From positions 1 to 54,387 of IMG/VR virus record IMGVR_UViG_3300047550_003005: a DNA stretch of 54,387 nucleotides; one strand, 5' to 3'. A program made the translations under genes and the position numbers. This document shows, in pieces, positions 1 through 54,387 of the stretch (the stretch's first letter is position 1; each line of letters starts with the position of its first letter). The stretch comes from a virus. The notes below the pieces were generated by a model. It ran no database searches. It was not told the origin of the DNA and was given only the letters and a program-made list of their open reading frames with translations.

Positions 1-29
1 GCAGAAAGCCTGCCCCGGAAAACACCAGT
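1..29. repeat. 29-nt direct repeat, left copy
   Basis: The first 29 bases recur exactly at 54347-54375. The copies are followed by different bases (AGAGGG here, GAGGGGC at the right end), so this is not a simple assembly overlap. If the molecule is circular the two copies lie in tandem, 41 nt apart, next to the iteron region. Confidence 0.85.
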
Positions 30-122
30 AGAGGGTAACTGAAGTTTGAAGAGAAAATTCCTAAAAAAAAAAAAATAAACAGCAGGTATAGGGGGTAGCA
101 GGTGAAGAGGATTTGGATTGAG

Positions 123-2853: not shown

Positions 2854-2897
2854 GCCATAAACATCTCACGGCAATGACGCCGATGGAGATGACTCAG

Positions 2898-3176
2898 ATG
2901 CTTGATAACCTCACCCTCGCCGACCGCTTCCACACCCTGAACGAGCGCCTGAAGGAGCTTGAAGCCGAAGTGAAGTCCGTGCGCGACCAGATCGTTGCCA
3001 CCGGCCAGGAAAAGCTCTGCGGCGAATTCGCCAACGTGGTCGTCAGCCTCTCCGAGCGCAGCACCTTCGACGGCAAGCTGGCCCAGTCCTACCTGACCGC
3101 CGAGCAAATCGCCGCATGCACCAAAAAGAGCGTGATCACCACCGTGCGCGCCAAAGCCAAGACTGCGGAGGGCTGA
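2898..3176 (+). CDS. Hypothetical coiled-coil protein
   Basis: A 92-aa protein starting MLDNLTLADRF, with a heptad-like helix (LNERLKELEAEVKSVRDQIV) and a second half with a compact, possibly DNA-binding look (SYLTAEQIAACTKKSVITTVRAKAKT). ATG 2898 has GGAGATGA 8-9 nt upstream. In-frame ATGs at 2874, 2883 and 2889 lie in a leader segment that is also found before the gene at 5561, where it is not in frame, so it is read as leader rather than protein. This is the first gene after the promoter at 2825. Confidence 0.7.
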   Translation: MLDNLTLADRFHTLNERLKELEAEVKSVRDQIVATGQEKLCGEFANVVVSLSERSTFDGKLAQSYLTAEQIAACTKKSVITTVRAKAKTAEG

Positions 3177-10790: not shown

Positions 10791-13700
10791 ACCACGATCC
10801 GCGCAAGGCTATTCGTCAAGCCATGATGATTGCGCGGCGCGAGGTGACTGCGCCGAATAAGGCTTCAATTGGTGGTCAGCGGCATATGCTGGCTTACATC
10901 ACGCCTTATGAGGCAGAGCTTCTGATGCGGCGAGGTGGCTCTGGCCGCCTGACTGAATATGGTGTGCCTGCGTTTGATGATGGTAATGGCAATGGCCCTG
11001 GCGGTGGTCCTGGTAATGACTCCAATACAGACACTGCGATGTCTGATCCAAATACGCAAACAGCTACATCAGGAAATGAAGGCACTGGCGCGGGACCTAC
11101 AGGGGCTGGTGCTGGGGGTATTGGAGAGACTGGCCCTGACGAAACTGACGCCAATTTAAGTGGGCCTGTTGCCGCACCTGTGCCTACTGCGCCGACCGCT
11201 ACTGTGCCATTTGGCACTCCTCCTTTTGGCCAAGCGCCTTCAGCTTTAGGTCTGGGCCTTATTGGCGGTCTTGCCGGGCTTGGTTTTGGTGTGCCGGGTC
11301 TTGGTACTGCGGCAGCAGGGATTGGCGCGGCTATTGATGCCAACAACCTGAATGAGCAGCTTGGCATGATGGGCTTGGAACAAAATATTGATGCTCAGTT
11401 GGCCGCAGTAAATGCTATGACCATGGGCGCATTTGGCAGGGGTGCAGCGGAACAATTTGGGCAAACGCTGGGCTTTGATGCGCTTGCAGAAGCGCCGATG
11501 TCTGCGTTTAGCCCGCCACAAGACCTTCCTGGCCCTCCTGCTGATACGAGTAACCCGCCCCCTTATTATGTTGATGTGAAGGCTCCGAAACAGCCGGTTA
11601 TGCAAGCGGATGAAGAAGCGCAACGTGATTTGCTTGCCGCGCGCAATCCGATGCAGCAGCCTTTGATGTATGCTGATGGCGGTGCTGCAACAGGTGGCCG
11701 CATGGACCCGCGCATGCTGCCGGGCATTCATGTGCGTGTTCCTCATGATCGTGTTGGCCGTGCTGACGGTGGCCCGGTGCAGCAGCCGCAGGATGAGGAT
11801 GTGCGGATTGATGACCCGATCATTGGGTATCATGGCACCCCGCATGAATTTGAGCGCTTTGATCCGAGCAAGATTGGCACGGGTGAAGGCGAGCAAATGT
11901 ATGGGCATGGGCTGTATTTTGGCGAACAAGAAAATACTGCAAAATATTACAAAGATAGAATTTCAACTGAAGCTGGCAAGGCTAGGTTACTTGATGCCCG
12001 TGGCAACGAAATTGCCTTAAGTAATCCTGCAAATGCAGAATTTAAAAAATTTCTAAAAACTTATAGTGGTGGTTTTAGGTGGGGTGATGTTAATCACCAT
12101 GTTGAGGCACTAAAAAGAAAATCAGCGACTTTAGATGACGACATCAATTCTATTGATGAAATGCTTCGCACCCATAATTGGGCAGGCATTGAAGACACAC
12201 AAAAATATTGGCAAAACGAATTAGAAAAAAAGATACAGCAAAAACCTACAATTTTAGAATTCACAAATGCTTTAGAGAAAGCTCAAAGGATAGAGCCTAT
12301 TGGTCATATGTATGAAGTGGCTATCCATGCGCGTCCTGAAGAGTTTATGGATTGGGATAAACCGTTAAGCCAGCAAAACCAGCGTGTTCGTGATTTTTTC
12401 AAGCAGCGCGGATTTGATAAGGATTTCACAACTCCGCGCGGTTATACTCAAATTGGGGGTGATGTTTATATTGATGCAGCCGTCCGTGCTTCAGGCTCAA
12501 AAAGCGGTTTTGCCCTTCCTGCCGACAGAAAAAAGCTATCAGAAGATATGTTGGCAGCGGGCATTCCTGGCATCAAATACCTTGATGCTGGCAGCCGTGA
12601 TGCTGGTCAAGGCACCCGCAACTACGTTGTGTTTCATCCCAAGCACCTGGAAATCAAGCGCCGCTATGCCGATGGCGGTGAGATCACGCCGCCGCGCGAT
12701 CTGGGGGCTGATCCCACGGTGCAGCAGGCGCTGCGCCTATCCAGCCGGGTCACTGATAAGCGCACCCCGCAGCTTCAGGATGCCGCTGATCTGATTGCTG
12801 CTGGTCAGATGGGGCCGGAAGAATATCATGCCCTGGTGGGCCAGTATAAGCCTGTGCAGCCCTATACCAACGTGCCACCGATGGCTTCAGAGGCTGACTT
12901 GTTCCGTGGCTTGAGCGAAGATAAGCACGGCAAGGTTGGAGCAGAAAAGAATATTCCAGAAGGCCATCCGGTTGGTTTGCGGCTTGATATCCCCGCCTAT
13001 GATCGGCATGGCGTCTGGGCGCCTACCATCCATGATGGGCATGGCGATAAAGCCAAAGCAATTGCCCACGCACCCTTTGCCCATGTTTCTGATCCCGTCT
13101 TCAGCGTGTCCGAAAACAAGGCGCTGAATGTTGCTAGAGGCACAGCCAAATCGCCATTTGCCAAGATCAATGGCTTTTGGAAGCCAACATCTCCCGAAGA
13201 TGCCCAGGCGATGGCGCAGGAATATCTATACCATCCTGAATGGCGACAGGTCGGCATGGACCCGGAGCGGCATAGCTTCTTCTATGACCGTGAAACCCGC
13301 CAGCCGATTGTAAGCGCGGATGAGGCTTTGCAGGTAGGCCCGTTGGTGCTGGCGAAGAACCCTAAATACGGCAAGGTGACTGATTACAAGTACGCCATTG
13401 GCGGCGGTGTTGATGATGATCCCACGGTGCAGCAAGCGCTTTCCTATACCAGGAAAGTGACCCCGATGGGGTTTTACAGTCATGCTGCTGATGTTGCGGC
13501 CAATCTGCCGCAGCAAAAAGGCACACCGCAGCAGATGCTTTCAATGCTGACTGCGCGTGGCGTTAAGCCGGATGAAATCAATAATTCCGGCGCGCAAGAC
13601 ACATTTGGAAATCAAAAGACCGTGGCCAAGCAGGATTTAGCCGCGCATTTCCAGCAAAACATGCCTGACATTCAGGAACAGAAACGCATACCCAAGCCGT

Positions 13701-16129
13701 CATGGGAGCGTTTAGAGGCATCAAATCATGACCCCGAAATTTATGCGGCTGCTGCTTTTCCAGCTAAATTTTTTGAATGGACAATGGCTTATATGGAGGA
13801 TAAAAATCCAGAAGATATTGATTATCGTGAAATATTACTTCATTCGCAGCCCCATTGGAATGAAAATGCAATAAATGATTGGCTTGAAACTCAAGCTTAC
13901 AATAAAGCGTCTGATTTTGGCGCCATAAGCTCAACAGACGATTGGAATAATCTTCCTGAAAATGAAAAAAATAAATTCACAAAGGACGCAGAACAAAGAC
14001 TTAATTATCTAAAAACTACACTAGACTTCAAAAATAGGAGCGAAAGAAGTGCGCTTTTAGACCCGGATAAAAATTTCTTCAGCACCCATTGGGCTGTGCC
14101 AAATGTAATTGGCCACATTCGCATGCATGACAGGGATGGTGAGGATACGCTGCACGTTGAAGAATTGCAGAGTGATTGGGGGCAGGCCAAGCGTAATGGT
14201 GAGGATGTTCCTGAGCATCCGTTGATCAACAACACAAACACCTGGACCGATCTTTTGCTGAAGCGCGTTTTGCGTGAGGCGGCTCGTCGTGGATATAAGC
14301 GCATTGCTTGGACACCAGGGCAGGAGCAGGCGGAAAGGTACGACCTGAGCCAGCAAATTCATCAATTAAATTATGATCCAGAAGATAAAGTGCTTTCCTA
14401 TTATCATAAGGATCGCGGATGGGATGATCTTCCATATCGCGTTAATCCTGATGAAATACAAAAATATGTTGGGAAAGAGATTGCTAAAAATCTGCTTTCA
14501 CAACCACCAAGCCCATTGAATGGAAGCCATTCCCTAGAAATAAACACGCAAGTCGGCGGCGAAGGCATGAGGGCCTATTACGACAAAATCGTTCCCGCGC
14601 GCATGACGGAAATAACAAAAAAGCTTGGCGCCCCCGTTAAGGTAGAGCCGTACAAAATAAATACCCGAGATGGCGAAAAAACATTACATTCAATTGTGGT
14701 GACGCCGGAGCTAAAATCTGCGGTGTTGAAAGGAATGCCAGTGTACAAAGATGGCGGCAGAATTGGCTACGCTGATGGCGGCATGCCGGGCGATGATCCC
14801 ACGGTGCAGCGGGCGCTGGACATTACGCGGCAGGCGCAACCTGAGCAGTCTCCCATTCCTGGGGCCATGCAGGTGGCTCAGACGGTGGCAGCTCCAGGCC
14901 GCAGGCGCTTTGAGATCGCCCCGGCGCGTGTAGCGCCGATGACAATTGATCAGAAGGACCGCGATCTTCCAGAGGAAGGCAGCGTCACCATCAAACGCCT
15001 CACCGATGCCTTTAAGAAGGCGATTGATAACCACCTGTCACTGCCGCCTGCGCAGCAGATCGCTAATGCCCGGCAGGCTGAAAACAATGTGGCGCAATAT
15101 GTAGGGCGCGGGAAAACCGGCAAGATCAATTCCGTTCTGACCGCCAACAAGAAGCTGATGAAGGCGCAGACGGCTGGGGAAGATGACACCCCACTGATGC
15201 TGCCTGATGGCCGTACACTTGAGATGACCGGGCTGGCGTTGATGCCAGATTACCGGGAAGGCCAGTTTAAGATGTGCGGCAACTCTGATGTCTGCCGTGA
15301 TTCTTGTCTGGGTAAAGAATCAGGACAGTATCGGTATGATCCGACTGAAACCCAAGCCCAGATGCCGATGACGCAAGAAGAATTGGCTGCTGCTGGTGGC
15401 AAGCCCCGCATGGCTGCTTTTCGCCGCACTCAGGCGATGATGCGTGATCCTGAAAGCTTTGCCGTCTATCTGCATGAATTGATTGATGGTGCGAAGATCA
15501 TGGCGGAAAAGCGCGGCGCGCATCTTGGGGTGCGCCTCAATGTGCTTTCTGATTTGTCGCCAAAGATCATGGAGCCGATTATCAAGGCCCATCCAGAAGT
15601 TTCTTTCTATGACTACACCAAGATGAATTATGACCCGGTGGCGCCAAACCACCATTATACCTATTCATCCACGGGGTTGTCGCAGCCGGATCGTGGGGTT
15701 GAAAACCCCTACTCAAACTGGCGCAAGATGCGGGATCGTTTGGATCAAGGGCATAATGTCGCGATGGCATTTGCTCATGGGAAAAGTGATGCCTTCCCAG
15801 AGTATTTGCATGATGAAGAAACTGGGAAGAAGTATCGTGTTGTTTCTGGTGATGAGCATGACTTCCGCCCCTTGGACATGGTGCCAGAGGGGGAAGACGG
15901 CGTGATCATTGCGCTGAAGAACATGGCTGCCAGCAATTCCGAATACAAATATGAGAATGCCGCGCGCAATTCTCACGGTTTTTTTGTTCACCATGAGCCC
16001 GATTTTGAGCGCACCCCCGAAGGGACTTTTTCCCGAAATGAAAATGGGAATCGCATTTCCCGCAATAAAGTTTATACTGTTCGTACCCAACCTATGAAGC
16101 GTGGCGCCGTGCGCCAGCAGGAGAATTGA
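10787..16129 (+). CDS. Giant mosaic polyvalent-type protein with ART-like domain
   Basis: A 1780-aa protein in clear blocks: a Gly/Pro/Ala-rich region (about residues 60-300); an ADP-ribosyltransferase-like domain (YHGTPHEFERF near 346, YGHGLYFGE near 371, GTRNYVVFHPKHLEI near 610); a second module (about 640-885, with HSFFYDRETRQPIV); a third (about 885-1320) with FYSHAADVA, HVEELQSDWGQA, YKRIAWTPG and GEGMRAYYDKIVP, typical of phage large polyvalent proteins; and a C-terminal module (about 1345-1780) with a C-x5-C-x3-C cluster, recalling gp88-like phage proteins. Y-A-D-G-G linkers join blocks. Probably carried in the virion and injected to modify host proteins; that is inference. Its ATG overlaps the portal stop. 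Confidence 0.8.
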   Translation: MNHDPRKAIRQAMMIARREVTAPNKASIGGQRHMLAYITPYEAELLMRRGGSGRLTEYGVPAFDDGNGNGPGGGPGNDSNTDTAMSDPNTQTATSGNEGTGAGPTGAGAGGIGETGPDETDANLSGPVAAPVPTAPTATVPFGTPPFGQAPSALGLGLIGGLAGLGFGVPGLGTAAAGIGAAIDANNLNEQLGMMGLEQNIDAQLAAVNAMTMGAFGRGAAEQFGQTLGFDALAEAPMSAFSPPQDLPGPPADTSNPPPYYVDVKAPKQPVMQADEEAQRDLLAARNPMQQPLMYADGGAATGGRMDPRMLPGIHVRVPHDRVGRADGGPVQQPQDEDVRIDDPIIGYHGTPHEFERFDPSKIGTGEGEQMYGHGLYFGEQENTAKYYKDRISTEAGKARLLDARGNEIALSNPANAEFKKFLKTYSGGFRWGDVNHHVEALKRKSATLDDDINSIDEMLRTHNWAGIEDTQKYWQNELEKKIQQKPTILEFTNALEKAQRIEPIGHMYEVAIHARPEEFMDWDKPLSQQNQRVRDFFKQRGFDKDFTTPRGYTQIGGDVYIDAAVRASGSKSGFALPADRKKLSEDMLAAGIPGIKYLDAGSRDAGQGTRNYVVFHPKHLEIKRRYADGGEITPPRDLGADPTVQQALRLSSRVTDKRTPQLQDAADLIAAGQMGPEEYHALVGQYKPVQPYTNVPPMASEADLFRGLSEDKHGKVGAEKNIPEGHPVGLRLDIPAYDRHGVWAPTIHDGHGDKAKAIAHAPFAHVSDPVFSVSENKALNVARGTAKSPFAKINGFWKPTSPEDAQAMAQEYLYHPEWRQVGMDPERHSFFYDRETRQPIVSADEALQVGPLVLAKNPKYGKVTDYKYAIGGGVDDDPTVQQALSYTRKVTPMGFYSHAADVAANLPQQKGTPQQMLSMLTARGVKPDEINNSGAQDTFGNQKTVAKQDLAAHFQQNMPDIQEQKRIPKPSWERLEASNHDPEIYAAAAFPAKFFEWTMAYMEDKNPEDIDYREILLHSQPHWNENAINDWLETQAYNKASDFGAISSTDDWNNLPENEKNKFTKDAEQRLNYLKTTLDFKNRSERSALLDPDKNFFSTHWAVPNVIGHIRMHDRDGEDTLHVEELQSDWGQAKRNGEDVPEHPLINNTNTWTDLLLKRVLREAARRGYKRIAWTPGQEQAERYDLSQQIHQLNYDPEDKVLSYYHKDRGWDDLPYRVNPDEIQKYVGKEIAKNLLSQPPSPLNGSHSLEINTQVGGEGMRAYYDKIVPARMTEITKKLGAPVKVEPYKINTRDGEKTLHSIVVTPELKSAVLKGMPVYKDGGRIGYADGGMPGDDPTVQRALDITRQAQPEQSPIPGAMQVAQTVAAPGRRRFEIAPARVAPMTIDQKDRDLPEEGSVTIKRLTDAFKKAIDNHLSLPPAQQIANARQAENNVAQYVGRGKTGKINSVLTANKKLMKAQTAGEDDTPLMLPDGRTLEMTGLALMPDYREGQFKMCGNSDVCRDSCLGKESGQYRYDPTETQAQMPMTQEELAAAGGKPRMAAFRRTQAMMRDPESFAVYLHELIDGAKIMAEKRGAHLGVRLNVLSDLSPKIMEPIIKAHPEVSFYDYTKMNYDPVAPNHHYTYSSTGLSQPDRGVENPYSNWRKMRDRLDQGHNVAMAFAHGKSDAFPEYLHDEETGKKYRVVSGDEHDFRPLDMVPEGEDGVIIALKNMAASNSEYKYENAARNSHGFFVHHEPDFERTPEGTFSRNENGNRISRNKVYTVRTQPMKRGAVRQQEN

Positions 16130-28050: not shown

Positions 28051-29628
28051 ATGCCATTCAGTTCAGAGGCTGGCAAAGCCAGCATAGCATGGGCGTTGTC
28101 ACATATCCCGGTTCCTAAAACAGCATTGGATATTGGCTGCGGCCAAGGCACATACGCCAAGATGTTTCCAAAGCTCCAGTGGACTGGAGTGGAAATTTGG
28201 GAACCATACGTTGAAAAATATGGTCTAAAAGACCTCTACCCAAGCCTTCAAATTGCCGATGCCCGTGAATGGGATACGGATGAGCATTTTGATGTGTGCT
28301 TCCTTGGCGATGTGCTGGAGCATATGCCAGCGGATCATGCCATGGAATTGGTGGAAAGGGCCAAGCAGTGGGCTGACACGGTGGTGATCAGCATCCCGCT
28401 GGGGCATTATCCGCAGGGCGAGTATGACGGAAACCCATATGAAGCCCATGTGGTGGACCATTGGACTGACGCTCAGGTAAGGCAGGCATTTGGTGAGCCC
28501 ACTTGGTCTGACATTGACCGCGAAATTGGTGTCTATGTCTATTCCAAGCATGAGATTCGGTTGCGAATTGCCGTCTATGCCATCAGCAAGAACGAAAAGC
28601 AGTTTGTTGAGCGCTTTTGCAAATCAGCCGAAGGTGCCGATTGTATCCTGATTGCAGATACCGGCAGTGATGATGGCACGGTTGAGGAGGCCCAGCGCTG
28701 CGGGGCTGCCGTGACCAGCATTTACATTAATCCATGGCGGTTTGATCATGCCAGGAATGCTGCCCTGGCCGTGATCCCGCGCGATATTGATGTCTGCATC
28801 AGCCTTGATCTTGATGAAATGCTTGAACCCGGCTGGCGGGAAGAGATTGAGCGCGTTTGGACACCCAGAACCACCCGTTTGCGCTATTATTTCGATTGGG
28901 GTGCTGGCATCCGGTTCAAATATGAGAAGATTCATGCCCGGAAAGGGTACTTCTGGCATCATCCGTGCCACGAATACCCGGTTGCTGATGGTCGGATCGT
29001 GGAAAACTGGGCCAATTCAGAGATGCTGCTGGTCAGCCATCATCCAGACCCCACCAAAAGCCGTGGCCAGTACCTGGATTTGTTGGCTTTGTCGGTTAAG
29101 GAAGACCCGCACTGCCCACGCAATGCCTTCTATTACGCCCGCGAGCTGACCTTCAATTACCGCTGGCATGATGCCATCAAAGAATTGCACAGGTATCTGG
29201 ATTTGCCGCATGCCAACTGGCCGAATGAGCGGTGCTATGCCTACCGGCTGCTTGGGAAAGCCCATGGCGAGCTTGGTGATCAGGTTCAATCCGAAAAATT
29301 CTACCAACTTGCCGCCAGTGAAGCGCCAGGAACCCGTGAGCCATGGTGTGAGCTTGCGATGCTCTATTACCGGCAGCACCGCTGGCCAGACTGCTATGCG
29401 GCCTCCATGCGGGCTTTAGAAATCAAAGACAAGCAACTGGTCTATACCTGTGATCCCGCTGTCTGGGGCCATTGGGCGCATGATCTGGCGTCAATTTCGG
29501 CCTGGAATATGGGCATGAAAGAGGTTGCCTTGGAGCAGGGTAAATTGGCTTTAATGCATTCGCCTGAAGATGCTAGGCTGCAAGCCAATTTGGCTTTCAT
29601 GGCAGGAATTCAGCAAGAGGCCGCCTGA
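28051..29628 (+). CDS. Methyltransferase-glycosyltransferase-TPR fusion
   Basis: A 525-aa three-part protein. Residues 1-165 are a class I SAM methyltransferase (ALDIGCGQGTYA near 24-35, DVCFLGDVLEHMPADH near 80-95). Residues about 170-320 are a GT-A glycosyltransferase of the GT2 kind (IAVYAISKNEKQFVERF, ADTGSDDGTVEEA, and SLDLDEML as DXD-like metal site near 250-257). The remainder is TPR-like helical repeats (YAYRLLGKAHGELGDQVQSE, PWCELAMLYYRQHRW). It probably builds or caps a sugar on a glycan, lipid or virion protein. It lies among tail and holin genes, so modification of fibres or of the host surface is possible. Confidence 0.85.
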   Translation: MPFSSEAGKASIAWALSHIPVPKTALDIGCGQGTYAKMFPKLQWTGVEIWEPYVEKYGLKDLYPSLQIADAREWDTDEHFDVCFLGDVLEHMPADHAMELVERAKQWADTVVISIPLGHYPQGEYDGNPYEAHVVDHWTDAQVRQAFGEPTWSDIDREIGVYVYSKHEIRLRIAVYAISKNEKQFVERFCKSAEGADCILIADTGSDDGTVEEAQRCGAAVTSIYINPWRFDHARNAALAVIPRDIDVCISLDLDEMLEPGWREEIERVWTPRTTRLRYYFDWGAGIRFKYEKIHARKGYFWHHPCHEYPVADGRIVENWANSEMLLVSHHPDPTKSRGQYLDLLALSVKEDPHCPRNAFYYARELTFNYRWHDAIKELHRYLDLPHANWPNERCYAYRLLGKAHGELGDQVQSEKFYQLAASEAPGTREPWCELAMLYYRQHRWPDCYAASMRALEIKDKQLVYTCDPAVWGHWAHDLASISAWNMGMKEVALEQGKLALMHSPEDARLQANLAFMAGIQQEAA

Positions 29629-34418: not shown

Positions 34419-34907
34419 ATGTCCGAAGATATTAGGGTCCGAATTGCCACGCCTGATGATGTCCATGATCTCATGGAATTGGCGATGCTTGCTTGTGATG
34501 AAAACGGGTTTGTGAACCCAAACCCGGTGAAGCTTTTGAACGAGATTTACCCGGCTTTAACCCTGCAATCTGGTATTGTGGGGGTTATTGGGAAGGCGGG
34601 TGAAAAGCCCGAAGCGGCCATTCTGCTTCGGGTCGGGAATGTCTGGTACTCAGATAATCCCGTCCTTGAGGAGCGGGCGATCTTCGTCCATCCTGATTTC
34701 CGTAGCGCGAAGGGTGGCAGGGCTGCCAAGCTCTGCAAGTTCGCCAAGGAAACGTCTGATAAATTGGGTTTGCCCCTGATGATTGGTGTGTTAAGTAATG
34801 ACCGTACTGCGGCCAAAATCCGCATGTATGAACGTCAATTTGGCTCGCCTTCGGGGGTGTACTTCCTGTATCAAGCCCAAACAGGGGGCTGGAAAGAGGC
34901 ATCATGA
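34419..34907 (+). CDS. GNAT-family N-acetyltransferase
   Basis: A 162-aa acyltransferase of the GNAT fold: VRIATPDDVHDLMELAM is the opening strand-helix, LEERAIFVHPDFRSAKGGRAAKL (in two parts) is the strand and acetyl-CoA pyrophosphate-binding loop (motif A, R/Q-x-x-G-x-A-like), and PLMIGVLSNDRTAAKIRMYER is the terminal N-x-x-x-x-x-x-Y-like helix. It transfers an acetyl group to an amine. Phages often carry one beside tail genes, and the target is unknown. It overlaps the next gene by ATGA. Confidence 0.85.
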   Translation: MSEDIRVRIATPDDVHDLMELAMLACDENGFVNPNPVKLLNEIYPALTLQSGIVGVIGKAGEKPEAAILLRVGNVWYSDNPVLEERAIFVHPDFRSAKGGRAAKLCKFAKETSDKLGLPLMIGVLSNDRTAAKIRMYERQFGSPSGVYFLYQAQTGGWKEAS

Positions 34908-37900
34908 GCGGTGGTGGTAAGAGCAGCACAAGTACCTCCTCGGTATCCATCCCGCCAGAGGTTTTGGCCCGGTATAATGCGGTAAATGCTCGCGCCGAGC
35001 AGGTCGCGCAGCAACCTTTCACGCCGTATGGCGGGCAGTTTGTCGCTCCTCTTACCCAAACGCAGCAGGCTGGCATTTCCAATGTCAGCCAAGCCGCTGG
35101 CGCCGCGCAGCCCTATTATCAGGCTGCCGGTACGGCGTTGCTTGGCGGTGCAGCGCAGGCCCAGCCTTATTATCAGGCGGCTACCCAAGACATCTATGGC
35201 GGTCAGGCGGCTGCCGCGCCGTTGCAGGCTGCGGCGGCCCAGAACATCGCTGGCGCCCAGGCTGCTGCCCAGCCTTATCAGGGCATGGCCACCGGATTTG
35301 GCCTTGCTGGTGCGCGGCAGATCGCGCCGGGCGGCTTGAATGTCGGCGCCTATATGTCGCCCTATACCGAGGCTGTGGCGCAGCCCACCTATCAGGCTTT
35401 GCGGCAGCAGCAGGAGCAAGAGCGCCAGCGGATGCTTGGTGAGCAAATCCGTGGCGGTGCCTTTGGTGGTGATCGCGGGCGGATTGCCCAGGCTAATTTG
35501 GCCCAGCAGCAAAACCTTGCCACCGCCCAGGCGTTGGGGAACATTTACCAGCAAGGCTATGGGCAGGCGCTTGGCGCGGCCCAGCAGCAGCAGGGCGTGG
35601 CTTTGCAGGCCGAGCAGGCCAACCGGCAGGCGCAGCAGCAGGCCGCCCAACAGTTCCTCGGCATTGGCCAGCAGGCATTTGGCCAGGGGGCGCAGACTGC
35701 CCAGCAGCAGGCGGCATTGGGCCAGCAGCTATTTGGCCAGGGCGCCCAGGCTGCCCAGGCGCAGCAGGCGCTTGGGCAGGGGCTGTATGGCATTGGGGCT
35801 GGCGTCAGCCAGGGGCTGGCCGGGCTTGGCACTGGCGCGCAGCAGGCAGCCTTGCAGGGCGGTCAGGCGCAGCTTGCGGCTGGTACGGTGGAGCAGCAGA
35901 CCCAGCAGGCGCAGAATCAGGCGCTGTACAACCAGTTCTTGCAGCAGCAGGGCTACCCGTTCCAAGTGGCGCAGTTCCTGGCGAACATCGCCATGGGTAC
36001 GGGCGCGCTGTCTGGATCGACCACGACCACCACGCAGCCTTCATCGTTCTTCTCGGATGAGCGATTGAAGCATGATATTGAGCCCATCGGTAAGACCTTT
36101 GATGGTCAGGACATCGTGCGGTTCAAATACAAGGGCGAGCCCGGCACCCGGATCGGCCTTGTGGCGCAGGATGTTGAGAAGAAGCATCCAGAGGCCGTGG
36201 GGCTGGCTGGCGGCTACAAGACGGTAGATTATGACGCCGCGACCGATGAGGCCGCCGCACGGGCTCCTAAAGCCTATGGTGGCGGTCTGAATCCGTGGGA
36301 TGGCAATTCCATGGGTGGTGGCGTGTTCCGTGAGGATGCTGGTCAGGGGTTTGCTGCTGGCGGTGCGCCGGGTGGTGATGATGTCCTGGCGCAGATCAAT
36401 GCGCTGGTGAATGCCCATCAGGGCATGTTCCCGTATGGCAAGGCGGGCCTGTACGGCGGCGGCATGGGGAAGGCTGGGCCTTATGGTTCCACGCTGATGC
36501 AGGCGCCTAGCCGTAATTTACTGACAGCACCAGCACCTCGGCAGCAGGCTCCTTATGATGTGCGGCAGGCCATGCGCGATGTTGGTGATATCGCAGGCAT
36601 GCCTGAGCGTATCCAGAAGGGTTATGCCGGTGCCAAGGCAGGTTTGGTTGGTTCTCCTGGACAGACCACCACGACGACCAGCCCTTCCGGCCAAACCACC
36701 ACACAGACAACGCCATCCTCTGGCGGATTGGCTGGCGAGGGCGGCAGATTGCAATGGCAGGGAAGCTGGGGGCAGCAGTTTGTTGAGGGCGCCCGCGAAG
36801 CTGCGCAGGATGTTGCTGCTGCTTTCGGTTATGCTCATGGCGGCACTATTCGTCCAGGCTTTTCTGTTGGTGGTTTGCCGTATAGCCAAGCAACTGACGA
36901 ATATGTCCCCGAAGATATCAGCAAACCTATTACTCCTGGTAAACTTGAAGCCCCAAAACCGGGTGGGCAACAATCTAATGATGGCAAACAGCTTTTGGAT
37001 TTTGCAAAAACTGCTGCGGCAATTTATGGCGCTGGCGCGGCCACCGGAGGCGCAATTCGGCGCCATTATGAAGATGGCGGATTTGCCGACATAGGCAATT
37101 ATGGTGGTTTTGGTGGTGATAATTATGAGGGTGGTTTAAGCCCGCAAAAATTTGAAACGCCAGATTCTCGTCCCTCTTCAATTCTTGATCAAAAGGATGG
37201 CAAAAACGACAAAAACAATACCTCATCCGCACAAATTAATCCGGGTGTGCTGTCGCCAAGCGCGGGTGGTCATTATGATCCCAGTAAAGATGATGCGCAA
37301 ACTGCGGCATCATTGGCAGCTATAGCTGCTGCGGTTATGCTTTCTGATCGCGGGTTGAAAGAAAACATTGAGCCTATCGGCAAACTTTTTGATGGACAAA
37401 ATGTGTATCGCTACAATTTCAAGGGTGACGACAAAAAGCAAATTGGCTTGATGGCGCAGGAGGTTGAGAAGAAATACCCTGATGCTGTTGGGCTTGCGCC
37501 GCGCAAGGGGTATCAGCAGGGCGGTGGCCCGAATGTTCCTGAAGCGTATCAATCCATTGTTGAAGAGGTGGCGCGCGAAAGGGGCGTTCCGCCGCATATT
37601 CTTGGCGCTGTTCTGCGTCATGAATCTGGCTTCAATCCTGAAGCGCGTGGGCAGGCTGGAGAAATCGGCCTGGGGCAGATTTTGCCCAGCACAGCGCGCA
37701 GGCCAGGGTTTGGCCTTAATCCTGCGACCGAAGAAGAATTGCGCGATCCTCGGCGCAATATTGATTTCTCTGCCTCTTATATTGCGGCCCGCAATCCGAA
37801 TGTTGATTGGTCCAATCCAGTCGCGGCGGCGCGGGCTTTGGCTACCAATTACAATGCCGGTGGTGATCCCAATTATGCTGAAAAGGTCATCCGCTATTTC

Positions 37901-39700
37901 CCTGGTGTGACTGAAGAGCAGATCGCTGAAGTGCGCGCTCGCGCTCCTCAAGGTGCTGCTGCATCTGCCGATGATTTGACGCGGCTTGCTGGGCCGCCGC
38001 GCCAGCAGCGCGGTCTTGTGAGGATGGAACGCCCGGCGCCGGATTGGATGCAACGCAATCAATCCTGGTTTGTCCCGGCATTGGCCGGTCTTGCAGGCAT
38101 GGCGTCTTCTCCAAGCAGGTATCTAGGCTCTGCTGTCTTGCAGGGGCTTGGGACGGCTGCTGAAACCTATGGCGGCATGCAGGCGCGCTTTGAAGAGCAA
38201 CAGCGCGCCCGTGAGCAGACTGGCATCCAGGCGCAGCAAGCAGCCACCGCAGAGCGGCGTGTGGATGTTGAAGAGTCCTTGCGGAACCTTCAGCTCTTGC
38301 AGCGCTTTGAAGCCATGTATGAACGGCGCCTTGGTCCCGACAATCGTGTCTTCTACCTTGACAAGGCAACTGGCCAGCAGATCAGCCTTGAGGAATACAA
38401 CAGGCGGTATCGGCAAATGCTTGGCGCGCTTACTGGCGGCGGGTCAGGTGTTGGCGCTGTTGCTGCCAGTCGGGCTCCTGGCGCCTCTGAAGCCCCTGCT
38501 GCTGGGCGTCCTGGTGAAGTGCCTGTCCCTGGTGCCGCACCTGCTGAACAGCCCGCAACGCCGCCAGCAGAGGGGGCTACCGAAGGTAGGCGTGAAGCTC
38601 CTGCTGCCCCTACAACGCAGCCTCAGACGCCGCCGCCTGCTCCTGGGCAACGTGCTGAACCGGCATCACCATATGCAAGTTCAACAGCGCAGCGCAGGCT
38701 TGAGGGGTTTGATTATTCTGTGCTTCGGAATGAAGACAATCCTCAATGGATTGATGAGCAAATCCGCGCGAAGCGCGCCAGGATTGCCGCGCTTCGGACT
38801 GAAGGAACGCAGCAGGCGCTTAATGAAATCCCTGGCTTGGAAAGCGAAGTTAAGGATTACCAGCAGCGCGCAGATAGGATCATTGGTGGTGAAATTGTTC
38901 CTCGCAACAGGGACAACACGCTGAATGAGCAGTTCCGTCAGCTTGCTGTTGAACGTGCGCAGGATGCCAAGTTTGTTGAGAGCTTGGCTGAATCTCGCAC
39001 CAATCAATACAACCGAGCCAATTCTTTTGTTTCGACGGAATATCCTGTTGCGCGCGGGCTGATAGATCAATTGACGCAGATTTATCAGAATGTGCAAACA
39101 AACCGTGGTTCTGAGGCGCTCGCGCAATTGGTCGGGCTTGGTAGCCAACTGCCTTGGCTTGGTCCTGTGATCCAAGAGCGGTTTGGTGATTTGCAGGCTG
39201 CTGTTGATGCGGGCAATAAAACTGCAATTGAGCAGGCATTCTCAAAGATTGCTGAGTCTGGCGCGCAGCGCGCTCCTGGTACGGCATTAAGAGAAGCGCT
39301 TTTGACAGTGGCGCAGCCTGGGATGTCGCCAGACGCTCGGTACATTGTCATCACCAACACGCTCGCCAATTTGGAGCGTGAGAATAAGCAATACCGCGAT
39401 TGGCTTGATGCCGGTATGCCGGAACCGGCGGCATTTAATGCTCGCTGGACGGCTTCAGGTGATAACGATCTTTCTGTCTTCCAGCGGCAGGCTGTTTCTC
39501 GGACCCCGCGTTTCGCTGGCATGACGGAAGGCGCACGACCGCTGATCCGTGGTGGTGAGCCTGCTGCTGCACCTGCTGCGCCTAGGCGGGTAGCGACAGA
39601 AGCAGACATCAACGCAACCTTGGCGGCAAACCCAGGAATGACACGCGAACAGGTAATTCAGCGCGCACGTTCCATGGGATATGAAGTGGGAGGCGAATAA
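34904..39700 (+). CDS. Giant virion protein with two S74 domains and lytic transglycosylase
   Basis: A 1598-aa protein. Residues about 1-360 are Ala/Gln/Gly-rich and helical. Two intramolecular chaperone/peptidase S74-like domains follow: SDERLKHDIEPIG from S384 and SDRGLKENIEPIG from S814, each with FDGQ, Y/F-x-F/Y-K-G and IGL(V/M)AQ(D/E)VEKK. A goose-type or SLT lytic transglycosylase then shows ILGAVLRHESGFNP with likely catalytic E907 and GEIGLGQILPSTA. The C-terminus (about 1040-1598) is helical with a Pro/Ala-rich linker. S74 domains normally trim tail fibres by autocleavage. If both act, the chain would become about 383 + 430 + 785 residues. The enzyme probably opens peptidoglycan at DNA ejection. 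Confidence 0.85.
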   Translation: MSGGGKSSTSTSSVSIPPEVLARYNAVNARAEQVAQQPFTPYGGQFVAPLTQTQQAGISNVSQAAGAAQPYYQAAGTALLGGAAQAQPYYQAATQDIYGGQAAAAPLQAAAAQNIAGAQAAAQPYQGMATGFGLAGARQIAPGGLNVGAYMSPYTEAVAQPTYQALRQQQEQERQRMLGEQIRGGAFGGDRGRIAQANLAQQQNLATAQALGNIYQQGYGQALGAAQQQQGVALQAEQANRQAQQQAAQQFLGIGQQAFGQGAQTAQQQAALGQQLFGQGAQAAQAQQALGQGLYGIGAGVSQGLAGLGTGAQQAALQGGQAQLAAGTVEQQTQQAQNQALYNQFLQQQGYPFQVAQFLANIAMGTGALSGSTTTTTQPSSFFSDERLKHDIEPIGKTFDGQDIVRFKYKGEPGTRIGLVAQDVEKKHPEAVGLAGGYKTVDYDAATDEAAARAPKAYGGGLNPWDGNSMGGGVFREDAGQGFAAGGAPGGDDVLAQINALVNAHQGMFPYGKAGLYGGGMGKAGPYGSTLMQAPSRNLLTAPAPRQQAPYDVRQAMRDVGDIAGMPERIQKGYAGAKAGLVGSPGQTTTTTSPSGQTTTQTTPSSGGLAGEGGRLQWQGSWGQQFVEGAREAAQDVAAAFGYAHGGTIRPGFSVGGLPYSQATDEYVPEDISKPITPGKLEAPKPGGQQSNDGKQLLDFAKTAAAIYGAGAATGGAIRRHYEDGGFADIGNYGGFGGDNYEGGLSPQKFETPDSRPSSILDQKDGKNDKNNTSSAQINPGVLSPSAGGHYDPSKDDAQTAASLAAIAAAVMLSDRGLKENIEPIGKLFDGQNVYRYNFKGDDKKQIGLMAQEVEKKYPDAVGLAPRKGYQQGGGPNVPEAYQSIVEEVARERGVPPHILGAVLRHESGFNPEARGQAGEIGLGQILPSTARRPGFGLNPATEEELRDPRRNIDFSASYIAARNPNVDWSNPVAAARALATNYNAGGDPNYAEKVIRYFPGVTEEQIAEVRARAPQGAAASADDLTRLAGPPRQQRGLVRMERPAPDWMQRNQSWFVPALAGLAGMASSPSRYLGSAVLQGLGTAAETYGGMQARFEEQQRAREQTGIQAQQAATAERRVDVEESLRNLQLLQRFEAMYERRLGPDNRVFYLDKATGQQISLEEYNRRYRQMLGALTGGGSGVGAVAASRAPGASEAPAAGRPGEVPVPGAAPAEQPATPPAEGATEGRREAPAAPTTQPQTPPPAPGQRAEPASPYASSTAQRRLEGFDYSVLRNEDNPQWIDEQIRAKRARIAALRTEGTQQALNEIPGLESEVKDYQQRADRIIGGEIVPRNRDNTLNEQFRQLAVERAQDAKFVESLAESRTNQYNRANSFVSTEYPVARGLIDQLTQIYQNVQTNRGSEALAQLVGLGSQLPWLGPVIQERFGDLQAAVDAGNKTAIEQAFSKIAESGAQRAPGTALREALLTVAQPGMSPDARYIVITNTLANLERENKQYRDWLDAGMPEPAAFNARWTASGDNDLSVFQRQAVSRTPRFAGMTEGARPLIRGGEPAAAPAAPRRVATEADINATLAANPGMTREQVIQRARSMGYEVGGE

Positions 39701-50681: not shown

Positions 50682-50701
50682 ATGTGAAAACGGAGAATAC
50701 G

Positions 50702-51307
50702 ATGTCTACGCAAGCAACGATCAAAAGTGTCCGTCTGGCCTACATGCACCTCGCACAGCCCCATGCGGCTGCCGAAGGCGCTGAACCCAAGTATAGCGTT
50801 ACGATGATTATCCCGAAGGCCGACAAGGAACAGGTTGATACCCTCAAGAAGGCGATGGTAGCGGCCCGCGATTTGAAGTGGGGCGCCCAGGCACCTAAGG
50901 GGCTGCGCTCCCCGCTGCGTGATGGCGATGAAAAGGACGATGATGGCAATTTCATCCGTCCCGAAGAATTCCGCAACGCCTTCTATGTCAACGCTTCTTC
51001 CAAGCGCCCGGTGGATGTGAAAATCCTGATGGGTGGGAAGATCGTGAGCTGCCCGGAAGAACACATGGTTTCCGGGTATTATGGCAGCGTCCAGATCAAC
51101 CTCTATGGTTATGACGCCGCCGGTAATAAGGGCGTGTCAGCCGGTCTGAATGGGGTGCTGATCACAAAGCGTGGTGAGCCCCTGGGGCGCCGCCTGGAGT
51201 GGGATGAATCCGCCACCAAGGGCGCCGAAGACTTCGGCGGCAGCTTCGGTGCGGCTCCCAAGGGGAATGGGTTCGTTTCTTCTGACGATGAAATCCCTTT
51301 TAATTGA
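50702..51307 (+). CDS. DUF2815 ssDNA-binding protein
   Basis: A 201-aa protein of the DUF2815 family, distant relatives of T7 gp2.5-type single-strand DNA-binding proteins: IKSVRLAYMHLAQPHAAAEG, KYSVTMIIPKADKEQVDTL, SPLRDGDEKDDDGNF, YVNASSKRPVDV, and GYYGSVQINLYGYDAAGNKG, with an acidic C-terminus ending DEIPFN. That ending, like the SSB DDxIPF tail, is used to contact partner proteins. It coats ssDNA in replication and recombination. CGGAGAATACG precedes the ATG. Confidence 0.88.
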   Translation: MSTQATIKSVRLAYMHLAQPHAAAEGAEPKYSVTMIIPKADKEQVDTLKKAMVAARDLKWGAQAPKGLRSPLRDGDEKDDDGNFIRPEEFRNAFYVNASSKRPVDVKILMGGKIVSCPEEHMVSGYYGSVQINLYGYDAAGNKGVSAGLNGVLITKRGEPLGRRLEWDESATKGAEDFGGSFGAAPKGNGFVSSDDEIPFN

Positions 51308-51353: not shown

Positions 51354-51806
51354 GTGGACGGTCTAAAAAAGTGTTTTGCATGTGAAGCCGTTCTGCCGTT
51401 TTCGGATTTTTACAAACATCCGCGAACGGCAGACGGTTATCTCGGAAAATGCAAATCGTGCCAGCGCGAATCAATAAGGCGCAATAGGCTCGCAAATTTG
51501 GAAAGGTTTAGGGAATATGATCGTGAAAGAGCGCAAAATCCTGCGAGGAAAGTTGCTTCTTACAAAATCACACAAAAGTGGCGAACTGCTGATCCGAGGC
51601 GAATGCGCTGCCATAATGCAGTGGCCAGAGCGATCAAATCGGGCAGACTCCAAAAGCAACCCTGCGAATATTGTGGTGCCGTGAGGGCTTATGCGCATCA
51701 TGATAGTTATGACGAGCCATTGAATGTGATTTGGCTTTGTCAGCCCTGTCATAAGCAGCGCCACAAAGAGTTGGATGAGTTAAATCTGGGCGAAAATTGC
51801 CCGTAA
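51354..51806 (+). CDS. HNH homing-type endonuclease
   Basis: A 150-aa protein with two modules. The N-terminal zinc finger uses C7-x2-C10 and C33-x2-C36, with a SDFYKHPRTADGYLGKC phrase typical of such fingers. The HNH domain has C104-x2-C107, HHDSYDEPLNVIWLCQPC (His115/116, Asp117, Asn124, C129-x2-C132) and closing H133/H137. Free-standing HNH genes of this type move by cutting intronless or insert-free alleles. It splits the SSB and primase-helicase genes, is more AT-rich than they are, and starts with GTG behind an RBS-hiding hairpin. Confidence 0.85.
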   Translation: MDGLKKCFACEAVLPFSDFYKHPRTADGYLGKCKSCQRESIRRNRLANLERFREYDRERAQNPARKVASYKITQKWRTADPRRMRCHNAVARAIKSGRLQKQPCEYCGAVRAYAHHDSYDEPLNVIWLCQPCHKQRHKELDELNLGENCP

Positions 51807-51836: not shown

Positions 51837-54047
51837 ATGGCCGAAATATCTGCATTCCCTGACAAGCTCAGGCCGAATGCTGACGCCATGTATGACGCCC
51901 TCTCTTTCTGGTTCAAGCTCTGCACAGAAGGCCAGTTAGAGATTGGGTGGCGTGATCCACAGACCAAGGCGTTGAATCGCTTTAAGCGCTTTGAGCTGGA
52001 TGAGATTGAAGAGCTTGTGACGTTTGCCACCGAGATCAACGCGATCTCGGGCTGCAATGTCTATTACCGGGTTTGCACCCTGAAAGACCTGCCCGGCCCC
52101 ACCACCGATGAACATTTTCTCCAAGCCCCAGGCGCGCACATCGACCACGACGATGCCGCCAGCGTGTCACGCCTGCGGAGCCATCCCCTGGAATTCAAGC
52201 CAGCCTATCTGGTTATCACCGGGCGCGATCCCGAAGTGCGCGGCCAGACCTTCTGGCCGGTAGCGGAGCCCATCACGGACTCGGCCATCGTGAGGGAGAT
52301 GAACAGCAGGCTGGCGCAGCATTTCGGGGGCGACCCTGCTGTGGTGAACCCCACCCGGCTGATGCGCGTCCCTGGCAGCATTGCGTGGCCGGTTAAGAAG
52401 GGCCGCACGCAAACCGAGATCACCCAGCTCCTGTGGCCTGCCGAACAGCGGTTGCAGCGGGTGGAAGCAGATGCCCTGCTGACCATGCTGCGGGCGCTGG
52501 AACAGCAAAAAACACTCCCTGAAGGCCCCCAAAATACCCCCCAAAATACCCCCGAAATCGTTTTGGGGGATAATTTGCATGAAACCTCCCCCCCAGGTTC
52601 CGATCAGTGGGCGCCGCCAGTGCGCCAGAATGCCCCGGTCAGTCAGCTTATTGACGCCACCAAGCAGGATGGCACTTGGCACAACAGCGTCCTGCGGCTG
52701 GTGGCAAGCTGGATCAATCGGGGGCTTTCAGACAAGGAAATCCACCTCTTCGCGCCAGCCCTGACGCGGCCCGGCTACACGGTCAGGCAGACGCACGAAG
52801 AAATTCAGAAGATGATCGAGGGGGCGCGGCAGAAGTGGAACCTGCCGGATCGTGACCCTTTTGCTGATGCCGCCCCGCCAGCCGAAAAGCAGGGCATCTG
52901 GACCGATGACAGTGACGACCTGGACGATATCCCTGAGCGGCCTTGGCTGGCCCCAGGCATCCTCCTGCGCGGCGCTGTGACCCTTCTGTCGGGCCAGGGC
53001 GCGGGCGGCAAATCCAGCTTCATCGTGGCCTTCACCACCTCCATGGCCGCAGGCGTTCAATTCGGGAAGATCACCCCCAAGCACAAATTCCGCAGCATCA
53101 ATTTCAATGTGGAAGACGACCGGGATGAACAGCGCCGCCGCTACGCAGCCTTCCTGGCGGCTTCCAGCCATATTGAGAGGTCAGCCATCAGGAACGTGAT
53201 CAGGGTAGGCCCAGAGGGCGTAGGAACCCTGTTCCAGCGTGATCCTGACACCGGGGTGGTGACACCCACCCAGGCCATGGAAGACCTGAAGAAGCTTGTC
53301 ATCGAAAACGACATCGACTGCGTGATTTTCGATCCCATGGCAGAGCTGCACAATGCTGAGGAGAACGACAACACCGCCATGCGTTCCATCCTGGCGGCCT
53401 TCCGGGGCTTCGCCAAGGAGACAAACGCCGGGGTGATGGTGCTGCACCATGATCGCAAAGGCGTGGGGGTTGCCGGTGATGTGGATCGCATGCGCGGGGC
53501 TTCGGCCCTCCAGGGTGCGGCCCGCATCGTGCTGACCCTTACCAGGATGACGGAAGAGGAAGCAGACGCCCTGGGCATCCCCCAGGAAGAACGCACCTCA
53601 TACATCCGCATCGACAACGCCAAGGCCAATTACACGAAATTGGGCGAGGCCATGTGGTACAAGCTGACCAGCCAGACCATCAGCAACGGGGAGAGCATTG
53701 GGGCCTGCCTGCCTTGGACCCCACCTGACCGCATCGCCTCCCTGACCGGGGAGATGAAGGTGGAAATCCTGCGGCTGATGTTGGAAGCAGGGCCAGCCAA
53801 ATGCCGGGCGCACCACCTCAGCAACGACTATGCCCCACGCTGGTTAAGCGAGATCGTAGGTGCCGATGAGAAGCTGATCAGGCAATATTTGGACGCTTGC
53901 ATCAAGGGCGGCGCAGTGACAATCGACAAGGATGTGATTGAGCCAGACACCCGCAGGCCCCGCCCTGCGTATGTGGTGAACAGGATCAAATTCTTGGAGA
54001 TGCAGCAGCCCGCGAGGCCCGTGGAGCCTGAAGAGGAGGGGTTTTGA
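51837..54047 (+). CDS. Primase-helicase-like AAA ATPase
   Basis: A 736-aa replication protein. Residues about 65-230 resemble plasmid/phage primase-polymerase domains (CNVYYRVCTL, PGAHIDHDDAAS, YLVITGRDPEVRGQTFWPV, VNPTRLMRVPGSIAWP). The C-terminal half is a RepA/DnaB-type ATPase (AAA_25): Walker A GQGAGGKSS at 386-394, SINFNVEDDRDEQRRR, Walker B CVIFDPMAEL near 495-504, VMVLHHDRKG sensor. The tail has a winged-helix look (EILRLMLEAGPAKCRAHHLS). It should open and prime DNA at the phage origin, perhaps the iteron region just downstream. Confidence 0.85.
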   Translation: MAEISAFPDKLRPNADAMYDALSFWFKLCTEGQLEIGWRDPQTKALNRFKRFELDEIEELVTFATEINAISGCNVYYRVCTLKDLPGPTTDEHFLQAPGAHIDHDDAASVSRLRSHPLEFKPAYLVITGRDPEVRGQTFWPVAEPITDSAIVREMNSRLAQHFGGDPAVVNPTRLMRVPGSIAWPVKKGRTQTEITQLLWPAEQRLQRVEADALLTMLRALEQQKTLPEGPQNTPQNTPEIVLGDNLHETSPPGSDQWAPPVRQNAPVSQLIDATKQDGTWHNSVLRLVASWINRGLSDKEIHLFAPALTRPGYTVRQTHEEIQKMIEGARQKWNLPDRDPFADAAPPAEKQGIWTDDSDDLDDIPERPWLAPGILLRGAVTLLSGQGAGGKSSFIVAFTTSMAAGVQFGKITPKHKFRSINFNVEDDRDEQRRRYAAFLAASSHIERSAIRNVIRVGPEGVGTLFQRDPDTGVVTPTQAMEDLKKLVIENDIDCVIFDPMAELHNAEENDNTAMRSILAAFRGFAKETNAGVMVLHHDRKGVGVAGDVDRMRGASALQGAARIVLTLTRMTEEEADALGIPQEERTSYIRIDNAKANYTKLGEAMWYKLTSQTISNGESIGACLPWTPPDRIASLTGEMKVEILRLMLEAGPAKCRAHHLSNDYAPRWLSEIVGADEKLIRQYLDACIKGGAVTIDKDVIEPDTRRPRPAYVVNRIKFLEMQQPARPVEPEEEGF

Positions 54048-54387
54048 TGCCTGCTCCAGTAACTGCTCCAGTAAATAAAATGGCCAGTTTACTGGAGCAT
54101 TTACTGGAGCAAGGCGAATTGCGTAATAACTGGAAACTGTCAAAAATGCTAAGATGCGGTGTTAAGAATTACTTTCAACCCATTGAAATGTATCATTCTG
54201 CTCCAGTAAATTTACTGGAGCAGGCTAAGTCATTGAAAACATTGGATGCTCCAGTAAAATCGCCCTATAGGGAAATCTGTTTACTGGAGCAAAAGGGGAT
54301 GAGGAGCTGCTCCAGTAAATCTACCTCACGGACTACTGGTTTCCGGGCAGAAAGCCTGCCCCGGAAAACACCAGTGAGGGGCAAAAT
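54047..54387 (+). CDS. Partial reading frame across the iteron region
   Basis: The ATG overlaps the ATPase stop (TGATG), and the frame is open for 113 codons to the window edge. If the molecule closes on itself it would run on to TAG at 29-31 (123 codons). The product (MPAPVTAPVNKMASLLEHLL...) repeats A-P-V and L-L-E-Q because eight of the nine 12-bp repeats are spaced in multiples of three. The middle (RNNWKLSKMLRCGVKNYFQP) is basic and compact. It may be a real gene or just a frame left open by the repeats. Confidence 0.45.
   Translation, partial: MPAPVTAPVNKMASLLEHLLEQGELRNNWKLSKMLRCGVKNYFQPIEMYHSAPVNLLEQAKSLKTLDAPVKSPYREICLLEQKGMRSCSSKSTSRTTGFRAESLPRKTPVRGK
54052..54319. repeat. Nine iteron-like 12-bp repeats in both orientations
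   Basis: TGCTCCAGTAAA occurs forward at 54052 (last base C), 54064, 54199, 54247 and 54308, and as TTTACTGGAGCA at 54088, 54100, 54211 and 54280. The copies at 54052/54064 and 54088/54100 are exactly adjacent in 12-bp steps, and 54199-54222 is a perfect 24-bp palindrome. An iteron origin or a protein-binding array downstream of the replication ATPase is the simplest reading. Confidence 0.85.
54335..54375. repeat. Imperfect long hairpin containing the right 29-nt repeat
   Basis: ACTGGTTTCCGGGCAG (54335-54350) pairs, with small bulges, with CTGCCCCGGAAAACACCAGT (54356-54375) round AAAG. The repeat copy 54347-54375 equals bases 1-29. It may be a terminator, a recombination site or part of an origin. 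Confidence 0.65.

Follow-up and report, generated by a model that had tools for sequence, protein, structure and literature searches.

The nine copies of a 12-bp word, TGCTCCAGTAAA, grouped directly 3' of the gene for a primase-helicase-like replication protein in the 54,387-nt stretch of viral DNA analysed here (the window), can be considered the initiator-binding (iteron) part of the phage replication origin, adjacent to the gene of its own initiator; judging from sequence comparisons, this reading is given a probability of about 0.8. Since the word changes together with the DNA-reading tail of the helicase, the locus very probably holds both the replication start site and its reader. An iteron-like origin had been proposed in an earlier note made from the window alone, and it is favoured by the position of the array, its copy number, its co-variation with a DNA-binding domain, and the presence of the same layout in circular plasmids. 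Both a cluster of words beside a replication gene and repeats diversifying with the DNA-binding domain of the initiator, features that characterise iteron origins, are found.

Eight copies of TGCTCCAGTAAA are exact and one carries a single mismatch, all located at 54052–54319 in both orientations (Table 1); the invariant core of the word comprises 10 bp (GC-NN-CAGTAA). A word search agrees with the earlier note that only the first of the nine copies deviates, in its last base, and it confirms the two tandem pairs (54052/54064, 54088/54100) and the perfect 24-bp palindrome (54199–54222) claimed there. The placement directly 3' of the primase-helicase-like gene also holds, the array starting 5 bp past the stop codon (54045–54047) of the 51837–54047 gene. 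The A+T content amounts to 62–67% at about 54111–54260, versus about 40% in the end of the preceding gene. Beyond the array, the sole match to TGCTCCAGTAAA with up to two mismatches in 54 kb is located at 28311 (two mismatches), and when the window was shuffled 100 times with dinucleotides preserved, its word-match count was never reached. With all nine copies in 268 bp and this one match elsewhere, the dispersal over the phage genome typical of stoperators is not seen. No strict DnaA box (TTWTNCACA) lies near the array, its single match in the window being at 1978; such boxes are common, but not universal, in iteron-type origins. Two other candidate features of the region were rejected. In the small ORF 54047–54385 overlapping the array, 19 of the codon changes relative to L028 are non-synonymous and 2 are synonymous, there is no clear third-position bias, and the frame end shifts among relatives. 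As to a structured RNA, the Rfam matches are miRNA models far under their gathering scores, and are explained by the inverted repeats.

Table 1. Features of the array and of the adjacent replication gene (positions in the window).
Feature	Position	Strand	Remarks
Replication protein, primase-helicase-like, 736 aa (P0001)	51837–54047	+	AAA_25, E 6.9e-31; RSF1010 RepA match
N-terminal region, residues 1–340	51837–52856	+	Probable archaeo-eukaryotic-type primase (AEP), weak assignment; RepB_primase, E 0.028
RepA/RecA-like hexameric helicase ATPase domain, residues 356–542	52902–53462	+	PF13481 AAA_25; 1g8y match
C-terminal winged-helix domain (predicted), residues 631–736	53727–54044	+	Putatively array-binding; AF2, Foldseek, co-variation with the word
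Word copy R1, TGCTCCAGTAAC	54052–54063	+	1 mismatch, last base
Word copy R2	54064–54075	+	Exact; tandem with R1
Word copy R3	54088–54099	-	Exact
Word copy R4	54100–54111	-	Exact; tandem with R3
Spacer R4–R5	54112–54198		Most A+T-rich stretch of the array; candidate unwinding element
Word copies R5 and R6	54199–54222 (R5 at 54199, R6 at 54211)	+ (R5), - (R6)	Exact; 24-bp perfect palindrome
Word copy R7	54247–54258	+	Exact
Central palindrome CCCTATAGGG	54263–54272		Between inverted R7 and R8; apex of potential hairpin
Word copy R8	54280–54291	-	Exact
Word copy R9	54308–54319	+	Exact
Imperfect hairpin ACTGGTTTCCGGGC..GCCTGCCCCGGAAAACACCAGT	54335–54375		Closes the array; 3' arm recurs at window 1–29

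Besides genes for terminase, portal, capsid, tail, and lysis proteins, the window contains a replication block composed of genes for an Enc34-type SSB (50684–51307), an endonuclease VII-like protein (51354–51806), and the 51837 gene. A GapR-like DNA-binding protein is encoded at 702–995 (+; PF10073, E 5e-30), and as the GapR family is known from alphaproteobacteria, it suggests an alphaproteobacterial host. The window also contains a gene for a 1780-aa polyvalent-type protein (10787–16129, +) with GP88 and sub-threshold ADP-ribosyltransferase (ART-PolyVal) matches, a 525-aa protein (28051–29628, +) that matches a methyltransferase at its N-terminus and a beta-1,4-glycosyltransferase family at its C-terminus, and a 1598-aa ORF (34904–39700, +) in which an S74 intramolecular chaperone match is joined to a lytic transglycosylase (SLT) match.

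The closest solved relative of the ATPase of the 51837 protein, and the sole convincing one, is the RSF1010 RepA helicase 1g8y (E 9.9e-12). The RepB_primase match of the N-terminal region is weak, falling short of the curated cut-off, and the AF2 model of this region is unusable (pLDDT 45); the segments GAHIDHDDA, RGQTFWP, and RLMR.PGS.AWPVK, kept in four relatives, may represent AEP motifs. The C-terminal 111 residues were modelled by AF2 with a pLDDT of 82 in the order helix-helix-helix-strand-wing-strand-helix, and the top Foldseek PDB matches of this model are winged-helix proteins almost throughout (best E 8e-3), so the domain is predicted to be a winged helix. Beside the helicase gene no candidate for a separate RepC-like iteron-binding protein was recognised.

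Two viral scans yielded 28 usable loci with a homologous gene, some of them near-duplicates, and in the 280 bp past each stop codon the best 9-mer was counted on both strands with at most one mismatch. An array is present within this distance in 27 of the 28 loci, each count being higher than the maximum of 100 dinucleotide shuffles, and in 23 of the 28 the count is also higher than in any other tile of 280 bp from that locus; the exceptions are L011, L018, L025, L052, and L043, the last having no array at all in the 280 bp after the helicase stop. In L011, L025, and L052, 280-bp tiles elsewhere hold 16–23 repeat copies unrelated to the helicase-adjacent arrays. The layout is common to the family: direct copies right after the stop codon are followed, in most loci, by an inverted pair flanking a CCTATAGG-like palindrome, which stays roughly constant among relatives while the words change. 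The word itself differs by lineage: TGCTCCAGTAAA is shared by the window and L028, TGCGACAGTAAA by L009, L029, and L030, a TGCGTCGGGTC-like word by L012, L014, L016, and L020, ATCGGGGATT by L010 and L011, and GAAGTGCGGG by L023 and L049, GAACTTCGGG being present in L022; words beyond TGCTCCAGTAAA and TGCGACAGTAAA–GAAGTGCGGG occur in other loci. An exact search of the viral contigs for the 24-bp palindrome gave no matches, and a search with a degenerate word pattern returned the known relatives, matches of two or three scattered copies, and L073, a contig with a TGCGACAGTAAA array whose helicase gene would lie beyond the contig end. No near-identical phage was found in the INPHARED collection. 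The earlier note had held that absence of the word from close relatives would speak against an origin. The word is indeed absent from L009, L029, and L030, but the array is kept there with its word concertedly altered, and because the altered array occupies the same locus, the absence does not refute an origin.

This concerted alteration can be followed in an alignment of the window, L028, L029, and L030, in which the nine copies are in register. When the window is compared with L029 or L030, nine of nine copies differ at word positions 4 and 5, most other positions differ in no copy (against L030, in at most one), and the spacers diverge by 47–53% (L030: 47%). The two-base change, TGC-TC-CAGTAAA versus TGC-GA-CAGTAAA, affects all nine sites. 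As the direct copies changed like the inverted ones, a parallel that base pairing would not require, recognition by a protein is favoured. A single-strand hairpin origin, in which the words would act mainly as paired stems, as in the stem-loop of pRN1, and the inverted copies would co-change to keep pairing, is accordingly judged highly unlikely. In many loci, hairpins of inverted copies topped by the central palindrome are indeed predicted (z to about -7 versus mononucleotide shuffles), and the pRN1 origin is likewise a stem-loop 3' of a gene, but the tandem direct copies bear the same substitutions, the hairpin is weak in L013, L016, and L020, with folding near background in L013 and L020, and the co-variation follows the winged-helix domain.

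That co-variation was assessed by a partial Mantel test on 24 loci, with array similarity expressed as shared repeated 7-mers, without hand-chosen words, and with the helicase as the only proxy for phylogeny. Array words correlate with the C-terminal domain when the helicase is controlled for (partial r = 0.65, permutation p = 0.0005), the corresponding value for the helicase ATPase domain, with the C-terminal domain controlled for, being -0.02. DNA identity between the window and L009 is 82% in the helicase, 70% in the C-terminal domain, 62% in the array, and 85% downstream of it; between the window and L028 the pattern is reversed, with 69%, 82%, 84%, and 70%, respectively. L022 and L023, with different words, are 98% identical in the helicase domain and 69% in the C-terminal domain, and their DNA identity drops where the latter begins. 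Thus, in the simplest reading of these sequences, the domain and the array appear to move together as a single cassette, while the backbones around them are conserved. Linkage can mimic co-evolution here, because no other part of the gene is as close to the array as the C-terminal domain; one recombination event can carry both neighbours, and independent word changes are few. Fourteen positions of the C-terminal domain separate the two word classes (TGCTCCAGTAAA versus TGCGACAGTAAA), and among the few residues that would match the two-base change, A658, L661, and R707, which belong to the loop preceding helix 2 and to the wing, are candidates. It can tentatively be proposed, as a broader possibility of somewhat less than even likelihood, that phages and phage-plasmids with RepA-type helicases share a portable initiator-origin cassette, in which the winged-helix domain and the iteron array recombine as a unit. 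Around a nearly invariant CCTATAGG core, such cassettes would have split into numerous word specificities that exclude one another, the probable driving force being incompatibility of origins or else origin-targeting satellites or nucleases, and the two-base change in nine sites would be matched by few domain residues.

The main rival of the origin reading is an operator array, in which the words would be bound by the same protein or by another regulator, a promoter inside the array would drive the genes past the contig junction, and replication would start elsewhere. A sigma-70-like match, TTGAAA-16-TAAAAT, is present inside the array at 54233–54260, its second hexamer overlapping copy R7, the spacer around it is conserved in L028, L029, and L030, and Rep proteins often also autoregulate. 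However, L009 lacks this promoter-like spacer, and nothing evidently equivalent occurs in the wider family, where the array and the central palindrome persist; most first copies are located right after a gene end and not before a gene, and the word specificity follows a helicase-fused domain rather than a free repressor. An operator role instead of an origin is therefore considered unlikely, although both roles may coexist.

The 29-mer at 54347–54375 is repeated at window 1–29, marking the join of the contig ends, and in L009 the helicase gene, the array, the hairpin, and sequence homologous to the first bases of the window follow one another unbroken. Because of this end repeat and the continuity in L009, the array is placed inside a circular or circularly permuted map, which bears out the earlier description of the array as preceding the joined ends of the molecule. 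Soon past the junction, at window 59–80, there is an A-tract, CCTAAAAAAAAAAAAATAAA, conserved in L009, L028, L029, L030, and L073 (reversed), which could be a further A+T-rich origin element. The vicinity of the join is also compatible with a packaging (pac/cos-type) or partition site bound by a small terminase or a ParB-like protein, the more so as small terminase sites can be repeat arrays and some relatives are phage-plasmids with a ParA gene. Such a role is nevertheless extremely improbable: the word tracks, and is swapped with, the C-terminal domain of the helicase, in the relatives examined, among them plasmids without an annotated terminase, it is the RepA-type gene that the array follows, and the small terminase gene of the window is 6 kb away.

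GC skew did not single out the array. The cumulative minimum, expected near 54.1 kb by the earlier note, lies, once the curve is detrended, at about 9.9 kb, and the maximum is reached at about 43.7 kb. In the window no extremum coincides with the array, and the same holds for two of the three plasmid relatives tested; a turning point of GC skew at an origin is supporting, not defining.

If the array is an iteron origin, the winged-helix C-terminal domain of the 51837 protein would bind the 12-bp words, i.e., many asymmetric sites in both orientations, as their co-variation suggests. The clustered subunits would then load the fused RepA-type helicase ring and open the DNA, possibly in the A+T-rich spacer 54112–54198 or at the central dyad. 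In what is the weakest step, the near-constant palindrome CCTATAGG, at the apex of the hairpin of inverted words, might mark the start point, e.g., as the place where the fused primase begins, like the ssi hairpins in RSF1010. Extension by the phage SSB and replication enzymes would come last. Being adjacent, the protein and its site would evolve and recombine as one cassette, each lineage having its own origin specificity.

The array layout is also present after the RepA-type helicase genes of circular plasmids and phage-plasmids of alphaproteobacteria: five copies in Microvirga pR24_3, six in an M. lotononidis plasmid, nine in Methylobacterium indicum pVL1_6 and in a phage-like plasmid of Rhodoplanes serenus, and 12 in the phage-like plasmid p1 of Caenibius sp. 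WL. No other replication initiator is named for pVL1_6 and pR24_3 in the PLSDB gene tables, which are themselves incomplete. A scan of genome contigs gave no relatives, and accordingly no chromosomal prophage of this kind is known. No array directly follows the gene in Rhizobium phage RHph_X2_26, Yersinia phage vB_YenM_281, Escherichia phage BUCT618, and ctfPj964, and a recognisable adjacent array is lacking in the RepA-type relatives L043, L056, L067, L069, and L070. In Rhodoferax phage P26218 (L068), the RepA gene is followed by a small separate gene (2369–2662), perhaps encoding a separate RepC-like DNA reader, and the array, composed of CTGCTACAA/TTGTAGCAG with CCCCTTTAGG, comes after it at 2866–3000, about 500 bp further on than an array directly following the RepA gene would.

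Should the origin reading be correct, sequence alone would suffice to locate the cis-acting origin in a wide range of uncultivated phages and of plasmids from alphaproteobacteria, a single recognisable gene being at most about 300 bp away. Naturally occurring pairs whose words differ although their helicases are nearly the same offer a ready test of an evolutionary question, namely how an initiator and some nine dispersed sites change specificity jointly. They would also allow predictions of which elements are able to coexist in one cell or to be exploited by satellites.

Precedents exist for iteron origins, for winged helices that bind an origin (P4 alpha), and for origins located 3' of the gene (pRN1); a search of the open-access literature gave no account of the present arrays, their constant core, or their cassette-like co-diversification. 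The helicase of P4 alpha belongs to SF3, whereas the ATPase of the 51837 protein is of the AAA_25, RSF1010 RepA-like type, so that the protein may work like P4 alpha without being a member of its family. In P4 alpha, a primase, a helicase, and a C-terminal winged helix binding short origin repeats are combined in one polypeptide (PMC4234260); a C-terminal winged helix is predicted for the 51837 protein as well, but the primase of P4 alpha is of the Toprim type (PMC4234260) and the N-terminus of the 51837 protein is probably AEP-type. The origin of pRN1 is located at most 166 bp 3' of the ORF904 gene, which encodes a primase-helicase with a C-terminal winged helix (PMC4234260); in contrast to the iteron array and RepA-type helicase described here, it is a 100-nt stem-loop without iterons, served by an SF3 helicase. 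The RepA iterons/Odn of PLE resemble this locus in that iteron-initiator specificity diversifies and replication modules are exchanged, but PLE is a satellite with three semi-palindromic iterons of roughly 30 bp, unlike the nine 12-bp words of the window (PMC8263062).

By analogy, the closest model for the mechanism of the array would be RSF1010 (IncQ), in which RepC acts on the iterons, RepA unwinds, hairpins are exposed, and RepB' primes (PMC4234260). A RepA-type hexameric helicase, iterons, and a hairpin-like origin element are common to both, and owing to the relatedness of the ATPase to RSF1010 RepA, the locus looks like RSF1010-type initiation condensed to one protein and an adjacent origin: the helicase, the probable primase, and the DNA-reading domain are fused here, as opposed to the three separate proteins RepA, RepB', and RepC, and, unlike in RSF1010, the 12-bp words occur in both orientations and the array lies 3' of the gene. 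A very similar domain order, AEP-PriCT-RepA-winged helix, is known from PrimQH, whose winged helix was suggested to recognise the origin (Kazlauskas 2018, PMC5862659). The RepA helicase and the C-terminal winged helix are shared with the 51837 protein, whose N-terminus, set against the AEP domain of PrimQH, has a RepB_primase match below the cut-off (E 0.028) and an unusable AF2 model. The term iteron is absent from the main text of that paper, to which the sequences compared here add the candidate site and its co-variation with the winged-helix domain.
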